A stretch of 64,000 nt of DNA, taken from an archaeon (lineage in GTDB: Archaea; Thermoproteota; Nitrososphaeria; Nitrososphaerales; Gagatemarchaeaceae). The first letter of the stretch is position 1, and every line of letters starts with the position of its first letter. The position numbers and the translations under genes are program-made. The stretch lies in assembly GCA_021827865.1 (NCBI GenBank), contig JAKAUC010000009.1, positions 62,001 through 126,000 of the forward strand, read 5' to 3'. The notes under the pieces were generated by a model, which saw nothing but the letters and a program-made list of their open reading frames with translations, made no database searches and was not told the origin of the DNA. Below are positions 19,465 to 53,232 of this stretch, piece by piece.

Positions 19465-21195
19465 CTAGAGTATGCTCATGTGCATCACGGCCTGGGCGAC
19501 GACGACCGACACCACCGCGATGACGACAAGGGCGAAGGCGTGCTTGAACCCGTCAGCCACGCTCCCCTCCCCCATCTTCCCAGCCACCATGCCGATGAAC
19601 CAGCTCTCGAAGACGGCCACGGTGAGGAGGATGTCGATGTCCGCCTTGTTGAGCGGCTTGATCGGGGGGGCGAACTTGCTCGCCGCGCCGAAGTTGATCG
19701 GGGTGGCGATGAAGTAGACCATGATGAAGGTGGTGACGACAACCATGATGGACGCGAAGTAGTTGATGAACAGATAGGGCCTGAGGGAAGAGCGCTTTTC
19801 GCTTTCTAGGTCGTTCATCTTCCGCGTGAAGTCTGCCATATCAGAGAAGCTCCTCACTGTACCTCCCCCGACGTCGATGACCTCTGTCAGGAGCATCCCG
19901 GCCTCTCTGGTCACCCAGCTCTTGACCCCCTCTGCGAAGGTTCTGATGACCTGGACGGTGGAGACCCCCCATGACACCTGGGCGCTCATCTTCTTGACGT
20001 GCTTGGAGAGGAGGCCGTAATGCTTGTCGGCCAGTGACTGGATGGTCTGCTCCGGGGAGAGGCCGATCTTCCTCCCTTCCGAGATGTCTCTTATGAAGTC
20101 CGGGAGAGCTTTCTCGAGGGCGCTCTTTTCCCTCCCGGCTCTGATCGCGACCACCATGGGCGCGGCCGTCGCAGCCAGGAGCGCCAGTGAAGTGTGATAG
20201 AAGAGGTTCAGGGGAATTGGGAGGACGAACAGCAGTATCCCCGCCGGGGCCGATAGTCCGAACGCCTTGTATGGCCCGTAGTCCACGTATGGGTACCTAG
20301 CCTGGATGGCGTTCAGCATGTAGATGAAGAGGACAGAGAACGCAGGGACCCCCAGCAGTCCGAAGACTTCGATTCCCTGGATCCCCGACGTGCTGTTGCT
20401 GATGAGCGACTCCGCCTGGAAAAGTACGAAGAGGCTTATCCCCAGAACCGAGGTGATGGTGACGTAGCCCTCGGCCATTGTCCCGATGCTCTCGGACGAT
20501 TTCTTTACCTTGAGGGAACGGGCCTCGTAGATCTCCTTCAGCTTGTTGCTTAGGAAGGAGTTCATGTCGCCCCCCGTCTTGATCACAGTGGTGTAGCCGT
20601 AGAGGAGCTCGGCGAAGGGCTTGTTGGGGCTGGTCTCGGCCGCCTTTTCGAGGGCTGTGACAGGGTCCAGGCCGAAGACGTCGATGTCGAGGAGGATCCT
20701 CTTCGCCTCCTTGGCGGCGTTGGGGAAGATTTCGGTCATCCCTGCTATCCTGCGTATGGACGCGATGGGAGAGATGCCCCCGCCGGCTAGGACGACGATG
20801 AAGCCAACGACGAAGGGGAGCTCGTTATCCAGCGCGGCCGAACGGGACCCCTGGCTTATTCTCGGCGCCCGCATTATGAAGAGGAAGACCAGGGGAGGCG
20901 TGGCTGCGAAAGCTCCCGAGATAAGAAGGAGAAGGGGATTCGCCAGCACAAGGGCTATCCCGATCTCTGCGGCGAAGGCAAGCGCTGAGAGTACGGTCCC
21001 GAAGAAGGCGAGGGCGATGAGCCCCTCCGGGGTGATGCGCATGTTCGATTTCAGTATCTCTTCCCTCAGCCAGGGGCTGTCCTCGGCGATGCCGTTGGAG
21101 TAGCGCCCGAAGATCCTGTAGGCGAGCCCTGAGACGACGTCGAGAGGGCCGAGCCCGGGCTTGGGCTCGGCGGCGGGGAGCTTGGCTCGCTTCAA
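19465..21195 (-). CDS. Pilus assembly membrane protein with two GspF/TadC (FlaJ-like) domains
   Basis: 576 residues with about eight membrane helices. Two type II secretion F domains can be seen, one around residues 120-270 (LPFVVGFIVVLAGGGISP ... FAELLYGYTTVIKTGGDM) and one around 350-470 (LPDFIRDISEGRKIGLSP). This is the platform protein that turns ATPase motion into pilin extraction. The TTG start overlaps the stop of the ATPase gene as TTGA, so translation is likely coupled. Archaellum FlaJ proteins have a similar two-domain layout. Confidence 0.88.
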   Translation of the reverse strand: MKRAKLPAAEPKPGLGPLDVVSGLAYRIFGRYSNGIAEDSPWLREEILKSNMRITPEGLIALAFFGTVLSALAFAAEIGIALVLANPLLLLISGAFAATPPLVFLFIMRAPRISQGSRSAALDNELPFVVGFIVVLAGGGISPIASIRRIAGMTEIFPNAAKEAKRILLDIDVFGLDPVTALEKAAETSPNKPFAELLYGYTTVIKTGGDMNSFLSNKLKEIYEARSLKVKKSSESIGTMAEGYVTITSVLGISLFVLFQAESLISNSTSGIQGIEVFGLLGVPAFSVLFIYMLNAIQARYPYVDYGPYKAFGLSAPAGILLFVLPIPLNLFYHTSLALLAATAAPMVVAIRAGREKSALEKALPDFIRDISEGRKIGLSPEQTIQSLADKHYGLLSKHVKKMSAQVSWGVSTVQVIRTFAEGVKSWVTREAGMLLTEVIDVGGGTVRSFSDMADFTRKMNDLESEKRSSLRPYLFINYFASIMVVVTTFIMVYFIATPINFGAASKFAPPIKPLNKADIDILLTVAVFESWFIGMVAGKMGEGSVADGFKHAFALVVIAVVSVVVAQAVMHMSIL

Positions 21196-27312: not shown

Positions 27313-27741
27313 TTAGGTGAATGCCCCTGTGTATGTGCTAGTAGTTCCGTCCGAAAGAACTACCGAGAGCGTGTATGCTTCGCCAGCGTTGGCGGCTGCA
27401 CAGCCACTGCTGGTGAAAGTTACTGGTGTGGTCGCGCCTGCAGACAATGTGGTAGACGTTGCACTGATCGCGCATGAGGTACCGCCGTAGTTTAGGCTTC
27501 CAGATGAAGTCGCGCCATTGGCGGTTCCTGAGTTGATTAATGACACGCTGAAACTGGCAATGCTGGAATGTGAGATACTAGTAGCAGTGCTTACTGTGAT
27601 GTTTGCCTTGTTGGCTGCGCTGCCGAAGATGCCGAAGATGTACCCCAACACTGCCGCGAAGGCGATCAGGGTGGCTGCGATGATGAGGACTGTTGCGATG
27701 ATTGGCGAGATAGCTTTTCTTCGCTTTCCCGAGATTTTCAT
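27313..27741 (-). CDS. Archaeal type IV pilin (small)
   Basis: 142 residues. GKRRKAISPIIATVLIIAAT is a textbook archaeal pilin N-terminus, cleaved before AISP, followed by a Ser/Thr-rich beta domain with two cysteines (GGTSCAIS and SSGCAAA). The ATG lies about 25 nt from an AATATT element that also serves the divergent gene. It stands apart from an ATPase or platform gene, so it probably uses one of the two assembly systems in the window. Confidence 0.85.
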   Translation of the reverse strand: MKISGKRRKAISPIIATVLIIAATLIAFAAVLGYIFGIFGSAANKANITVSTATSISHSSIASFSVSLINSGTANGATSSGSLNYGGTSCAISATSTTLSAGATTPVTFTSSGCAAANAGEAYTLSVVLSDGTTSTYTGAFT

Positions 27742-29452: not shown

Positions 29453-31141
29453 TCACGCCTCGCCCACTCCCGACAGCTCCATGTACGCCTTCGTGAAGAA
29501 CTTCATCATCTCATACGGGGTGCTGAGGACCGAGTTGACTTTGAAGTACTTCTTCACTTCGGGGCTTTCGACCCCTATCCCCACCAGCATGATCCCCATC
29601 TTCCCCGTCTCCTTGATCTTCTCCGCGAGCTCCTCCTCGATCCCCGCGTAGCCCGTGGGGAGGCAGTCAGAGACCACCACCAGGTACTTGCTCTCGACGG
29701 GCCTGGAGTTGAGGGCCCTCGATGCGACGGCCAGGGCGTCGGGGAGGTAGGTCCCTCCCTTCTGCGAGAGCCCGCCTATCCTGGACTTCGCGTCGATGGA
29801 GTACGGGTCGTCGAAGTCCTTCACAAGCTGGAACGTGTCGTTGAACCCGAAGAGGCCCCACCTGCTCTTCTCCCTCATGACCGTGCTCGCGACCTCAGCG
29901 AGGCACGTCGCTATCCCGCGTATCTCCAGAGACGACTTCGACACGCTCTTACTCGCGTCCACGAGTATGGCCCAGGCCTCGTCCTTCAGTATCGGCTCCT
30001 CCCGGACGAAGACGTCTGACCTCTGCGACCCGGAGGCGACCACCTGCATTGCCATGGGCATGTCCACCTGGCCGCTGAGCTTCCCCGGTTCCTCGTCGGC
30101 CACGTTCTTGATGGCCAGGAGCTGGTTCTTGATGTTCCGTATCGGCCCCGCCAGCTCCGCCCTGGCCCTGAGGAAACCGGCGTAGTCGCCGTCGGGGAAC
30201 ACGATCCCGTTCAGCCTCGTGCTAGCCAGGAGCTTGGAGTAATAGTCGGTGACCTTCTTCCTCCTCGCGAACTGGTCCTGCAGCGCAGTGAACGTCTCCT
30301 TGAACTCGGGCTCGTCCGGGAGCTCCACCGACGCCCCTCCCTCGACCCCTATGGCCGCCAGGGCCCCTGCGAGCCTGGGCTTTCCCTTCCCCTTCGTCGC
30401 CTCGAGGTGGTCCCGGAAGAGGGAGTCCCCCGAATGCGCCTCGGTGTGGGGGAAGGCAGGGATCTGCGGCAGAACCACCTTGTCGAACTGCTTGTAGATC
30501 AGGTTGGCCGCCTTCAGGAGGAGGGGGTTCTCGGGGTCCTCGGCCGAGTTCTCGACCATCCCCCGAACCTTCTCGGTGATAGCGAGGATCGCCTGGTCCT
30601 CCTCGACCCTCCCCGCCTTGGCCGGGGCGACCCCCCAGAGGGCGACCAGGAGCTTCGAAGCGGTCCTGAGCCCCCTGCTCTCTATGTCGTCGAGGTCGGG
30701 CATCCTCATGGCCGCCACCAGGTTGGCGTAGGCGATGTCGGTCATCACCCCAGGCCATTTCTCCCTCGCCGCCAGGGTGATGCGGTAGTCCTCGAGCAGG
30801 GACAGGGTGAATATCGCCGGGAAACGCTCCTTCTCCTTCGCCCACTTCGCGAGGGGCTTCAGGTTGCCGTGGGCCAGGTGGAAGGCGGCGTGGTAGAGGG
30901 ACGCCCTGAAGAGCCTCCAGAGGGTGGCCCACCCCTGGCCGTCCGCGTCGGTGAACAGCCCCTGGACAGACACCACCCCCTCCTTCTCCTGCCTCGGGAC
31001 AGGTATCTTCGCCAGGAACCCGTCCCCTTCGAGCCCCAGGGTGGGCCTCGGCGCGGTGGCGCTCAGGATCAGCCTGAACCTGCTCTGGTCTGCTCCTGAC
31101 ACGCTGGAGAAGTTGGTCCAGGCGTACTCTAGGATGTTCAT
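29453..31141 (-). CDS. VWA-domain protein (CoxE-like MoxR partner)
   Basis: 562 residues. The C-terminal about 180 residues form a von Willebrand factor A domain with the MIDAS motif LVDASKSVSKSS (D-x-S-x-S), a threonine in GGTYLPDAL and an aspartate in VVVSDCLPTG. The N-terminal 370 residues are mostly helical and not recognised. Its ATG overlaps the TGA of the AAA ATPase gene as ATGA. MoxR ATPases and VWA proteins commonly act together as a chaperone or metal-insertion pair; the client here is unknown. Confidence 0.82.
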   Translation of the reverse strand: MNILEYAWTNFSSVSGADQSRFRLILSATAPRPTLGLEGDGFLAKIPVPRQEKEGVVSVQGLFTDADGQGWATLWRLFRASLYHAAFHLAHGNLKPLAKWAKEKERFPAIFTLSLLEDYRITLAAREKWPGVMTDIAYANLVAAMRMPDLDDIESRGLRTASKLLVALWGVAPAKAGRVEEDQAILAITEKVRGMVENSAEDPENPLLLKAANLIYKQFDKVVLPQIPAFPHTEAHSGDSLFRDHLEATKGKGKPRLAGALAAIGVEGGASVELPDEPEFKETFTALQDQFARRKKVTDYYSKLLASTRLNGIVFPDGDYAGFLRARAELAGPIRNIKNQLLAIKNVADEEPGKLSGQVDMPMAMQVVASGSQRSDVFVREEPILKDEAWAILVDASKSVSKSSLEIRGIATCLAEVASTVMREKSRWGLFGFNDTFQLVKDFDDPYSIDAKSRIGGLSQKGGTYLPDALAVASRALNSRPVESKYLVVVSDCLPTGYAGIEEELAEKIKETGKMGIMLVGIGVESPEVKKYFKVNSVLSTPYEMMKFFTKAYMELSGVGEA

Positions 31142-32703
31142 TTGGACCCGGCTTTTGCGTCCCCCACGACCATCCGGACGATCCTCCTCACGTTGTTCTG
31201 GACCTCGGGGTCGTCTGCCGTGAGGGCGATTATGGTCTCCTCGGCCGCCAGGGCGGGGGTCAGCCCGTCGGCCACGAGGGTCCCCCAGTTGACCAGGTCC
31301 CCCACCGACGGGGCGTAGGGGAGGTCGCCGGTCTTGTACTGCCTGCGTATCTCCGCGGCCACCCTGACCAGCTTCTCCGCCACGGGGCTGCCTATCTTGG
31401 CGCGCTGGGCTATCATCTCCACCTCGTCGGGGGCTATCTTGCTCCCGACGCTCAGGTAGTCGAAGTCGATCCAGACGGTCATCCTGCGGCGGAAGGCGGC
31501 GTTGAGGGGCTTGGTCCCTGCGAACTCAGCGGAGTAGGGGTTCATGCTGATCATCACGAAGCCGTTGGGGTGCCTGGGGATCACCTCGTTGTCCCTCTCG
31601 TTGAGGACCATGTGGCCCCTGGTGTCGAGGATCGGGTTGAGCCTGGTGGCTATGTCCTGCTTCATCATGTTGGCCTCGTCGAGGTAGAGGATGCCGCCGT
31701 ACCTGCACCAGGACACTATCTGGCCGTCGACCCAGTTCTCCTTCCCCAGGCCCACGAACCTGCCGAAGAGGTCGTAGACCGAGGTCTGGAGCCCGCAGTT
31801 GATCTCCCAGAGGGGGAGGCCGGCGAGCTCGGCGACGAGGTAGGTGATGTGGGTGTTGTGGGTGACTATCCCGTCCCCGGCGACGAAGGTCTCGGTCCCC
31901 GGGACCTCGAAGTCGTAGACCCACCCTTCGTGCGCCTCCATCTTCACTTCGACGACCCGCTCCCACTTCGCTATGGTCCGCCCGGACTGGAGGGCGGAGG
32001 TCCCTCCTATGGCCATGACGATGCTCGGGGCCGGGGTCGTGTTGACCACCGGGAGGAAGACCCCGGGCTTCAAGTCCGACGCCTTCACCGTCCCGTCCAG
32101 GGTGACGAAGGAGTGGTCCGGGGTGGCCGCGAGCTTCCGCCCCGTGGCCGTGGTGACCACGGCGATGGGGCCGGCGTAGGCGCTGCGCGCGATGGCCGCA
32201 GGGGATCTCCACACGATCTCGCCGGCGCGCCTGTCGAAGGAGAGCACCAGCAGCTCGTCCCTGCCGACCCGGATCGTCTCCCAGCTCCCGGCGGCGTCCA
32301 CCCTCTTCCCCGCTCCCTTCAGGGACTCGAAGATGCCTTCTATCGTGCTGGACCCTCTCTTGCCGTTGCGGATCACGTCCACCTCCTCCGTCCCCCTGAC
32401 GCTCTTCCCGGTCCCCGACGGCCCGATGAGGGCGCACTGCTTGAAATGATAGAGGGCGCGCATGATCCTCTCGACGTAGTTCTCCCCGTGCTCGACGTAG
32501 TCTGGGGTCCCCTTGGGGACCAGGGCCTGCAGCGAGGGCCCCATGGAGTAGCCCTCCGACAGGCTGTACTTCCCCACCTTGTACTTCTCCTTCAGGTTCT
32601 CCTTCCCGAAGCGGGGCTTCAGCGAGATCTTGACCGTCAGCCTCGCATTGTCCCCCTCCGCACGGATGTTCGTGGTGCCCGGGACTTCCTCTGCAGAGGA
32701 CAT
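31138..32703 (-). CDS. MoxR/CbbQ-type AAA+ ATPase interrupted by an in-frame mini-intein
   Basis: About 521 residues from the ATG at 32703. Without the intein it is about 338 residues. The Walker A is split: IGPSGTGK, then 183 intein residues, then THITYLVAELAG. Spliced, it reads GPSGTGKT. Downstream are GGILYLDEANMM (Walker B) and a VMISMNPYS sensor segment, with FRRRMTVWIDFDYL (arginine finger region). This matches the MoxR/GvpN/CbbQ group. ATG at 32703 is favoured over 32730 because a TATA-like ATAAAAT lies just over the latter. It leads a four-gene cluster with a VWA protein. Confidence 0.85.
   Translation of the reverse strand: MSSAEEVPGTTNIRAEGDNARLTVKISLKPRFGKENLKEKYKVGKYSLSEGYSMGPSLQALVPKGTPDYVEHGENYVERIMRALYHFKQCALIGPSGTGKSVRGTEEVDVIRNGKRGSSTIEGIFESLKGAGKRVDAAGSWETIRVGRDELLVLSFDRRAGEIVWRSPAAIARSAYAGPIAVVTTATGRKLAATPDHSFVTLDGTVKASDLKPGVFLPVVNTTPAPSIVMAIGGTSALQSGRTIAKWERVVEVKMEAHEGWVYDFEVPGTETFVAGDGIVTHNTHITYLVAELAGLPLWEINCGLQTSVYDLFGRFVGLGKENWVDGQIVSWCRYGGILYLDEANMMKQDIATRLNPILDTRGHMVLNERDNEVIPRHPNGFVMISMNPYSAEFAGTKPLNAAFRRRMTVWIDFDYLSVGSKIAPDEVEMIAQRAKIGSPVAEKLVRVAAEIRRQYKTGDLPYAPSVGDLVNWGTLVADGLTPALAAEETIIALTADDPEVQNNVRRIVRMVVGDAKAGSK
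31855..32403 (-). other. Mini-intein inserted in the P-loop of the AAA ATPase
   Basis: Coding for 183 residues. It starts with Ser (SVRGTEEVDVI), has a block-B-like AATPDHSFVT with the T-x-x-H motif, and ends with a block F/G pattern (WVYDFEVPGTETFVAGDG then IVTHN) followed by Thr as the +1 residue. The Hint fold blocks are all present but there is no room for a LAGLIDADG homing endonuclease domain. The insertion lies exactly between GTGK and T of the Walker A, so the enzyme cannot bind ATP normally before splicing. Confidence 0.85.
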
Positions 32704-32809
32704 GCTCGCGTCCGAGGTGTGATTTCGCATAAAATGGATTGCGAACCTCGGCTATGAATTTGCAGTCTATGACCGTTAAATAAGGTGGAGGGCCGTTCCA
32801 TCCCAGCGC

Positions 32810-33214
32810 TTGGTCGACATAGCAGTATCAGTCAAGGGGATAGAGGCGAACAAGACCTCGGACGAGGCCAACGAGTCGACCCCGGTGACGTTCAACGTCA
32901 ACTCCTCCATCAACGAGGCCGACCGCGGCCCAGGGTTCCTGAACCTGAAGTTCTCCATGGACGTGGAGACGCAGCCGGCTGCGGCCAGGGTCTTCGTGTC
33001 AGGGACGGCGATGTTGAAGGGGAAGGACGACGAGATCGACCAGCTCCTGGCGGCGAAGGAGGCGGACGGGAGCCCCGCGCTGTTCATGAAGATCTACCAG
33101 AGGGTCTACCCTACCATGTACCTCCTCTGCGGGACGCTGAGGCTGCCATATCCGGCGCCGGGGCTGCTGAAGCTCAACAGGATGGCCTCTGCCGAGCAGG
33201 AAGTGGCAAGGTAG
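32810..33214 (+). CDS. Small beta-rich protein, possibly SecB-like
   Basis: 134 residues with a TTG start; TTAAATAA lies about 30 nt upstream, so it is probably leaderless. The layout of alternating strands (TPVTFNVNSSINEA, FLNLKFSMDVETQPA, ARVFVSGTAML) followed by a helix with IYQRVYPTMYLLCGTLRLP resembles the SecB/PRK superfamily fold in which a P-x-x-R-x-x-x-x-x-L-x-x-R-G-x-x-P-P block occurs. This is a weak match. It is divergent from the MoxR-intein gene and could be its chaperone partner or just a neighbour. Confidence 0.65.
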   Translation: MVDIAVSVKGIEANKTSDEANESTPVTFNVNSSINEADRGPGFLNLKFSMDVETQPAAARVFVSGTAMLKGKDDEIDQLLAAKEADGSPALFMKIYQRVYPTMYLLCGTLRLPYPAPGLLKLNRMASAEQEVAR

Positions 33215-51327: not shown

Positions 51328-53232
51328 ATGGAGATCCAGGGCGGCCGCCCGCCCTCTCGTGCCCTGCTGCTGGGGCTGGTGGGGGGGGCCATCGTCACCC
51401 TGGTCGCCCTGACCCTGGTGATACTGGCCCACGCCTTCACCAGGAGCCCGGCCCTGCTGCTCCCAGCCGAGGCCCTGGCAGCGCTGCTCGCCGCCCTCAG
51501 CGTCGGGTCCATGGCCGACGGCGTCTACTTCTCCTGGCGGCGGTACCCGCAGCACAGGCGCGCCATACTCTTCGTCGTCGGGATCACCATGGCGACCCTG
51601 ATCGCCCACGCCTACATCATCAACGTCCCCGCGGTGAGCAGCGCCGGGACGGTCACCGGGGCCCCCGGGGCCCCCTTCGGGGACAGCAAGGTGTCAGTCA
51701 CCAGCTCGCTCGTCGGGCAGCAGCTCGAGGTCACGGTCCAGGCCGAGGCCGGGGGGAGCGCCATAGCCAGCCTCTCCCTCCTGGGCAACGGCGCCCCCCT
51801 GGCGGGCGGGGCGTTCTCCCCCCTGCCGAGCTACGCGTCCCCCCTCCAGCCGGGCTCCACGGCCGCGGGGGCATGGACCATCCCCTCGGGGGAGAACGTC
51901 ACCCAGCTGACCGTCGACTACCGGTACCTCGGCTGCTACGACACGACGGACCAGGTCTACGGGTGCGTGATGGACGAGGTCTTCTACGTCCCCGCCTCCC
52001 AGCACCTCCTCGCCGGGGACCAGTGCAAGGTCGGCGCCCCCTCGGGGACACCGGCCTACTGCAACCCCGAGCACCCCCCGCTGACCAAGGCCCTCATGGC
52101 CGCCGGGATGGCGGTGCTTGGGGAGTACGACGCCGCCGGCTGGAGGCTGATGCCCGCGGTCCTCGGCTCCTTCTGCGTCCCCCTGCTGTTCGGGACAGCC
52201 TGGGAGCTGTCGGGGGACAAGAAGGTCGCCTACGTCTCGGCCCTCCTACTTTCCATGGACGTGATGTTCTTCTCGCAGTCGAGCATCGGGGTCCTGGACG
52301 TCCCCCCGGTCTTCTTCGGGCTCCTCGCGTTCTTCGTCTACTTCAAAGGGGTGCGCTGGTGGAAGCTGGACAAGTACGTCATAGCCGGGGCCCTCCTGGG
52401 GCTCGCGGGGCTGGCGAAGGAGACCGCCGTCTTCGCCGTGGCCGCCCTCGCCACCTTCATCCTGTTCTTCGGGGAGGGGACCAGGCTCAGGCGGGTCTAC
52501 TCCATCCTGAAGGTGGTCCTGGTGGTGGGGCTGGTCTTCGCCGCGGGGATGCAGGCCTTCGACTCCTCGATGGCAAGCGCGTCGTTCCCGACCTTCGTCT
52601 CCCACGTGGGGTACATGCTGAGCTACGGGACGTCCCTGGTGGCCGACAAGCTGGCCTGCCAGCCGACGACCGGCTACTGGTGCATGTTCGCCAACGACCC
52701 CGGAGGGCCGCCCATACTCCCGCTGGGCTGGCTCCTTTACTACAGCCCGGTGGCCTACTACCTGGTGACAGTCACGGTCAACCCGGGGAACCTGACCTAC
52801 GTCTCGGTGGGATACTACGGGGTGACCAACCTCCTGATGACCTGGGCGACCTTCGTCTGGCTCCCGCTCCTGGCCTACGCCCTCTACTCGGAGTACAGGA
52901 GGAGGGAGCCGAAGCTGGAGGACTTCGCCGAAGCGCCGGCCGGGGCCGGGCTGTCCGGGGACGGGAGGCTAGCGGCGTTCACCCTGACCCTCTTCGCCTG
53001 GAGCTACGTCCCCTACCTGTTCCTCTTCCTCGGTGGGAGGGTCACCTACCCCTTCTACATCATCCCAGCGATCCCCGCCATGGCCATGGGGACGGCGTTC
53101 TGGGTGACGAGGAAGTGGTTCCCGAAGTGGCTGGCCGCGGTATACCTCTCCATGGTCTTCGTCTTCTTCCTGGTCTACTTCCCGGACAAGTCGTTCCTGC
53201 CGGTGTGGCTCAGGGCCCTGATCGGCCACTAG
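51328..53232 (+). CDS. GT39/PMT-family membrane glycosyltransferase
   Basis: 634 residues, about twelve membrane helices. The first large outside loop ends in VMDEVFYVPAS with the D-E catalytic pair, followed by NPEHPPLTKALMAAG, the H-P-P-L-x-K motif of protein O-mannosyltransferases. Other landmarks: RLMPAVLGSFCVPLLF, SIGVLDVPPVFFGL and GLAGLAKETAVF. It probably transfers a sugar from a dolichol-type carrier to surface proteins. It lies between two ACT-V4R genes on the same strand. Confidence 0.85.
   Translation: MEIQGGRPPSRALLLGLVGGAIVTLVALTLVILAHAFTRSPALLLPAEALAALLAALSVGSMADGVYFSWRRYPQHRRAILFVVGITMATLIAHAYIINVPAVSSAGTVTGAPGAPFGDSKVSVTSSLVGQQLEVTVQAEAGGSAIASLSLLGNGAPLAGGAFSPLPSYASPLQPGSTAAGAWTIPSGENVTQLTVDYRYLGCYDTTDQVYGCVMDEVFYVPASQHLLAGDQCKVGAPSGTPAYCNPEHPPLTKALMAAGMAVLGEYDAAGWRLMPAVLGSFCVPLLFGTAWELSGDKKVAYVSALLLSMDVMFFSQSSIGVLDVPPVFFGLLAFFVYFKGVRWWKLDKYVIAGALLGLAGLAKETAVFAVAALATFILFFGEGTRLRRVYSILKVVLVVGLVFAAGMQAFDSSMASASFPTFVSHVGYMLSYGTSLVADKLACQPTTGYWCMFANDPGGPPILPLGWLLYYSPVAYYLVTVTVNPGNLTYVSVGYYGVTNLLMTWATFVWLPLLAYALYSEYRRREPKLEDFAEAPAGAGLSGDGRLAAFTLTLFAWSYVPYLFLFLGGRVTYPFYIIPAIPAMAMGTAFWVTRKWFPKWLAAVYLSMVFVFFLVYFPDKSFLPVWLRALIGH

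Follow-up and report, generated by a model that had tools for sequence, protein, structure and literature searches.

A mini-intein without its own endonuclease in the P-loop of a MoxR-type ATPase, one state of an allele series in an archaeal genus

In the archaeal DNA analysed here, a stretch of 64,000 nucleotides that we call the window (from genome G000), the gene for a MoxR-type ATPase is interrupted within its Walker A motif by 183 in-frame codons. This raises the questions of what the insert is, whether it serves its host and how such an element is kept and passed on. An earlier note, made from the sequence alone, had read the insert as an intein devoid of a homing endonuclease and had proposed that it may act as a post-translational switch. 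We give a probability of about 0.85 to the reading in which a class-1 mini-intein sits in a normal ATPase as one state of a homing cycle and its splicing is most likely constitutive. The features of the locus are the following:

31138..32730, (-): host ATPase gene with in-frame intein; ORF of 530 aa from the first ATG
32404..32730, (-): N-extein, ending in ALIGPSGTGK, an end kept in intein-free orthologues
32404..32424, (-): Walker A residues 1-7, GPSGTGK; the eighth (Thr) lies at 31852-31854, beyond the intein
31855..32403, (-): mini-intein of 183 aa, Ser1 to His182-Asn183, recognized by profiles, predicted fold and matches to solved inteins
32107..32124, (-): intein block B, TPDHSF (TxxH); T94 and H97 invariant in 10/10 aligned alleles
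31966..32043, (-): short flexible loop, about residues 121-146, placed by alignments; lowest pLDDT (about 53) at residues 131-140
31855..31860, (-): intein C-terminal His-Asn; H182 and N183 invariant in 10/10 aligned alleles
31138..31854, (-): C-extein, starting Thr-His, stop codon included; its +1 Thr is the Walker A Thr
29453..31141, (-): VWA-domain gene 3' of the ATPase gene, overlapping its stop; Pfam VWA 2.4e-6 and VWA_2 2.4e-6

The frame is uninterrupted along the whole ORF (31138-32730), and positions 31855-32403 hold exactly 183 codons, from AGC (Ser) to CAC-AAC (His-Asn), followed by ACC (Thr), so that the Ser start, HN end and Thr +1 given in the earlier note are exact. The precursor reads ALIGPSGTGK, then the 183 residues SVRGTEEVDV...FVAGDGIVTHN, then THITYLVAELAG. 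The host matches AAA_5 (3.4e-14) and CbbQ_C (1.3e-15), in agreement with the MoxR type assigned before; by these matches it is a predicted NorQ/CbbQ-like MoxR-type AAA+ ATPase whose VWA neighbour is of its usual partner kind, and the VWA protein is presumed to be its partner. Among the best 80 of 141 relatives, retained from a scan of genome contigs, 77 loci carry the VWA gene, and in the remaining 3 the sequence stops less than 0.6 kb from the ATPase. The pairing of an AAA_5 and CbbQ_C ATPase with a VWA gene is shared with NorQ/NorD-type MoxR systems (PMC9976466); the window ATPase additionally holds an intein. Its C-extein is 66-94% identical to those of nine aligned relatives, and in a second bin of the window's species the gene is identical (0/1611 nt differ). 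The anticipated spliced product of about 338 residues holds if translation starts at Met 32703, nine residues into the frame. L004 and L006 have an equivalent of this Met, which is the likely start; counted from the ATG at 32730, the product has 347 aa. Divergent from the ATPase gene, the window also encodes a 134-aa protein (32810-33214, +) with no Pfam match and with a relative in 40 of the same best 80 of 141 relatives' loci.

The Hint-type profile check that had been proposed gave matches throughout. Scanned alone, the intein matches Pfam Intein_splicing (9.8e-15; 55.1 bits against a cut-off of 35.8), TIGR01443 (6.1e-8) and TIGR01445 (3.8e-6), and by sequence it matches solved inteins with a best E of 2.2e-7. 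Ser1, the N-terminal nucleophile, is present in 10/10 aligned alleles, and all 10 alleles compared have the +1 Thr codon. An AlphaFold model of the intein (mean pLDDT 91.3, pTM 0.84) has inteins as its top Foldseek matches, with a TM to the query of 0.74-0.79 for 11 of the first 13; the RadA (E 5.8e-12), TFIIB (1.4e-11), VMA and CDC21 inteins are among the 11 best PDB matches. With thresholds of E 1 for the window intein and 0.01 for four other mini-inteins, neither LAGLIDADG nor Hom_end gave a match, and in all five only Intein_splicing rose above its cut-off; the reported lack of a homing endonuclease is thus upheld. Judged on sequence and predicted fold, the nucleophile, the TxxH motif, the His-Asn end with +1 Thr, the HINT fold and the precise insertion confirm a class-1 mini-intein, and one that, carrying no endonuclease of its own, does not by its sequence qualify as a homing-competent mobile intein. 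Splicing would begin with an attack of Ser1 on the Lys-Ser bond, after which the chain would move to Thr+1 and Asn183 would cyclise. Joining of the exteins would then produce GPSGTGK-THITYL and with it a normal MoxR-type ATPase, which would work with its VWA partner.

Both edges of the intein are fixed by intein-free orthologues, which read GPSGTGKTH without a break and so bear out the placement between GPSGTGK and the T of Walker A. This uninterrupted motif occurs in 69 of the 80 relatives' loci (64 called by script and five, missed by the script motif, recognized by eye); an insert is present in 10, and one starts too late for a call. In a wider sample of 400 genomes drawn from the order, the C-extein was found at E 1e-60 or better in 87, of which 11 carry the intein. 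In the other 76 the open frame does not exceed 464 aa, which leaves no room for an intein, although a few of them are cut or broken and uninformative. Across this sample the intein at the P-loop site is, by sequence, limited to one family. Two further truncated carriers, G008 and G036, were detected through the intein sequence.

Within the genus, 13 of 31 genomes have the ATPase gene or part of it; since the bins are incomplete, the 18 others are no proof of absence. The states at the site are distributed as follows:

Mini-intein only, 5 genomes: G000, G061, G004, G022 and G012
Full-length intein, 4 genomes: G021, G016, G029 and G008 (G029 and G008 cut by contig ends)
Full-length and mini-intein, 1 mixed bin: G018
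Empty, 3 genomes: G015, G023 and G024

Each of the five complete full-length alleles (462-465 aa) has both a LAGLIDADG_3 and a Hom_end match, the Hom_end match in L050 being marginally below the curated cut-off. Their roughly 280 extra residues, with the LAGLIDADG endonuclease, stand where the window intein has its short loop (31966..32043). Five distinct mini-inteins have 183 or 184 aa and lack these residues at a single place. In the splicing-domain tree they make up one side (support 99/98), although this group unites long branches, and the tree program cautioned that groupings of that sort can be spurious. Because the mini-inteins share the position of the gap and group together, the endonuclease was probably lost once in their lineage; with the same caution about long branches, independent losses are not favoured. 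An intermediate may also be preserved: in the inteins of G008 (L141) and G029 (L015) the second LAGLIDADG motif reads FFDGGGG, which has no acidic residue, so that their endonuclease is probably dead and in a decaying state between full-length and mini. One bin deserves separate mention. YF1.bin6 (G018) holds three copies of the ATPase region (L046, L047 and L052), one with a full-length intein, one with a mini-intein and one a fragment, and the fragment precedes a VWA gene whose protein is 100% identical to the window's VWA protein; this bin is probably a mixture of strains or species.

The history of the intein differs from that of the host gene, since the mini-inteins group together on the intein tree but are rejected as one group on the C-extein tree (AU p 4.9e-5). 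For the window allele itself, descent looks vertical and under purifying selection, as judged from codon comparisons with G004: dS is 0.55 in the intein and 0.53 in the C-extein, and fourfold-degenerate sites differ at 34/91 and 50/114 (p 0.39). The intein dN/dS of 0.16 exceeds the 0.03 of the C-extein, indicating weaker selection on the intein; other mini-intein pairs give intein dN/dS of 0.45-0.66, for which dS may be near saturation. In all mini-intein pairs except G000/G004 and G022/G012, the inteins are 45-55% identical and the C-exteins 95-97% identical at the protein level, which points to the entry of different mini alleles into different species, unless evolution was very rapid in some of the inteins. 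In third-position GC the mini-inteins (0.82-0.93) come close to their C-exteins (0.88-0.95). The value lies well below that of the C-extein in three full-length alleles (G018a, 0.65 vs 0.94; G021, 0.70 vs 0.89; G016, 0.74 vs 0.90), less so in G135 (0.65 vs 0.78) and hardly in G030 (0.76 vs 0.78), which hints that some full-length alleles may have arrived later. A windowed comparison of full-length alleles (G030 against empty G181, and six other pairs) gave no clear co-conversion tract.

Another mini-intein appears to have moved, so the earlier statement that there is no obvious self-spread suits the window allele, which looks vertical, better than the mini-inteins at large. At fourfold-degenerate sites G012 differs from G022 at 11/100 positions in the intein but at 54/108 in the C-extein (Fisher p 8e-10). 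The C-extein of G012 groups instead with that of the empty G015 (support 100/100), and a G012+G022 grouping is rejected (AU p 1.6e-9, for a pair chosen from the intein result). Of the informative C-extein sites, 63 link G012 with G015 and 13 link it with G022; the G015-type sites begin at nt 12, so that the affinity changes within 12 nt of the intein 3' end. By BLASTN the G015-like stretch starts at the intein end and runs for 2.2 kb at 93.8%, and in the 33 nt 5' of the intein G012 differs by 1 from G022 and by 6 from G015. A mini allele therefore seems, from these sequence affinities, to have passed between species, a G022-like intein onto a G015-like C-extein. The G012 locus is a single 3091-bp contig at about 2x coverage that ends 33 nt before the intein, and a search for the missing N-extein in G012 did not find it. 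An assembly chimera is thought an unlikely source of the mosaic, because the empty G015 allele and G022 share only the first 11 nt of the C-extein; a G015-like strain with a different intein could still produce it.

How this allele moved is where the strongest alternative arises. In trans-homing, a full-length endonuclease encoded at the same site would cut an empty allele, and a copy of the mini-intein would repair the break. The closeness of the G012 and G022 inteins beside unlike C-exteins, set against the G000/G004 control, the affinity of the G012 C-extein to an empty allele and the abrupt switch at the intein 3' end, with G022-like sequence before the intein, are all in its favour. So is the co-occurrence of mini, full-length and empty states among bins of one sample prefix: YP1.bin46 has the mini-intein and YP1.bin45 the full-length one, and YF1.bin6 has both and YF1.bin89 an empty site, so that a helper endonuclease could be at hand. 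Against it stands a second gene of G012, mannosyltransferase-like (51328-53232, +, in the window; L172-L176), whose distance to the ATPase gene is 19 kb in the window and about 23 kb in G015. It contains no intein, and yet some 700 columns of its 5' part (about 260 aa) resemble G022 and are flanked on either side by G015-like sequence. Ordinary recombination is thus enough to explain the transfer, and homologous recombination between G022-type and G015-type lineages is, from these comparisons, the likely simpler cause. A further gene (19465-21195) is G015-like nearly throughout in G012, one 200-column window being slightly nearer G022. In the window this gene (-) encodes a Type II secretion F-like membrane protein, and 27313-27741 (-) has an archaeal pilin N-terminal match; by these matches both possibly belong to a type IV pilus cluster.

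The distribution of endonucleases also speaks against trans-homing. A search with the endonuclease alignment gave some match in 30 of the 31 genus genomes, and the strong matches (332-444 bits) are same-site inteins, in G021, G016 and G018, which themselves contributed to the alignment, and in G008 and G029. In the mini-only genomes no close copy of the cognate endonuclease was found elsewhere, the best match (74.8 bits) being in the intein of another gene. Viral contigs scanned with the mini-intein alignment gave three loci in which only the last 35-39 residues matched, at 31-33%. Since the documented transfer is a single one, on a short contig of low coverage, we consider trans-homing unlikely. 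In the excerpt of PMC10643990, how often inteins without an endonuclease (HEN) home by means of the HEN of a neighbouring intein is said to need research; here the helper would instead occupy the same site, in another cell's allele. Somewhat less probable is the notion that the same-site mini-inteins form a non-autonomous, satellite-like mobile lineage, bereft of the endonuclease and copied into empty alleles at breaks that the full-length inteins of co-resident relatives would make there, and we regard it as doubtful. According to the available part of PMC4071816, mini-inteins are mainly vertical and may move along with the host gene, whereas in G012 only part of the host gene seems to have been transferred.

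The window's genome is otherwise rich in inteins. Outside the ATPase gene, G000 has seven more intein splicing-domain matches (L036-L042; contigs C9, C13 and C20), which sit in six open frames of 548-1317 aa. A gene that we tentatively read as FAD-dependent-oxidoreductase-like carries a LAGLIDADG intein in both G000 (L144, on C9) and G012 (L143, on C14); its 883-aa frame looks the same in the two genomes despite their different ATPase inteins, pointing to recent exchange or cross-binning.

The proposal of a switch, in which the ATPase would be controlled through signal-dependent splicing, finds little to lean on. From its anatomy and from known inteins, the ATPase would first exist as a precursor of little or no activity, and because the insert splits the P-loop, splicing would gate activity. 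The N-terminal part of the precursor reads GPSGTGK-S, with Ser1 in the S/T position of Walker A; inactivity before splicing is a reasonable inference, and since GPSGTGKS is kept, even the absence of nucleotide binding at that stage is inference only. The flexible loop that remains at the endonuclease site would also suit a switch, as the P. horikoshii RadA intein splices conditionally and a loop of this kind tunes its splicing, according to the excerpted text of PMC5790916. These points are outweighed by the close relative G015, which is empty with a 96% identical C-extein, by the intein-free majority of relatives' loci and by the divergence of mini-inteins within closely similar C-exteins (G000/G004 and G022/G012 excepted). 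We found no support for the switch and hold it to be quite improbable; constitutive splicing is the default assumption. That the insert is instead a structural domain kept in the mature ATPase, the outcome that the earlier note had named as refuting an intein, is very improbable even though the frame is open throughout, given its traceless absence from 69 of 80 relatives' loci, the invariant splicing residues (10/10 aligned alleles) and allele lengths that jump by about 280 residues.

We thus favour an intein of the ordinary, parasitic kind, a class-1 mini-intein in a homing cycle whose states at this site would be empty, full-length with endonuclease, and mini after an endonuclease loss that probably happened once. 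The window allele would have been retained, and could be lost only by precise deletion or by replacement with an empty allele; the intein would persist because imprecise removal destroys the host protein. At least one mini allele seems to have crossed from one species to another, for which ordinary homologous recombination would be the simplest route.

Several known systems bear comparison. Insertion between the invariant P-loop Lys and Thr is termed the "classic" P-loop insertion in the available portion of PMC5050341, and MCM-a and VMA-b are located after the Walker A Lys in the excerpt of PMC10643990. The window intein occupies the same kind of site as these classic P-loop inteins (TerL1-a, archaeal MCM-a/CDC21-a and VMA-b) but in a different host family, AAA_5/CbbQ_C; among the matches listed in our literature search, no earlier paper was found on an intein in a MoxR, CbbQ, NorQ or GvpN ATPase. 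The closest structural matches, the Pyrococcus horikoshii RadA intein (4e2t) and the TFIIB Mvu mini-intein (5o9i), are 18-21% identical to it and reside in other host proteins, and the window intein has Ser1. Fungal PRP8 offers full-length, mini and empty alleles at one site, with deletions at nearly the same place (PMC1508164), and so resembles the archaeal series in its states at one site and in the shared place of deletion. Within euascomycetes that paper found no sign of horizontal transfer, whereas one mini-intein appears to have been transferred here. The haloarchaeal MCM site is likewise known in full-length, mini and empty form, according to the same excerpt of PMC10643990.

In summary, the collection of P-loop inteins gains a host family, the CbbQ/NorQ-type MoxR ATPases. 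The larger value lies in the natural series of alleles (empty, full-length, with degenerate endonuclease, and mini) within one archaeal genus, which lets one ask how an intein without an endonuclease moves.
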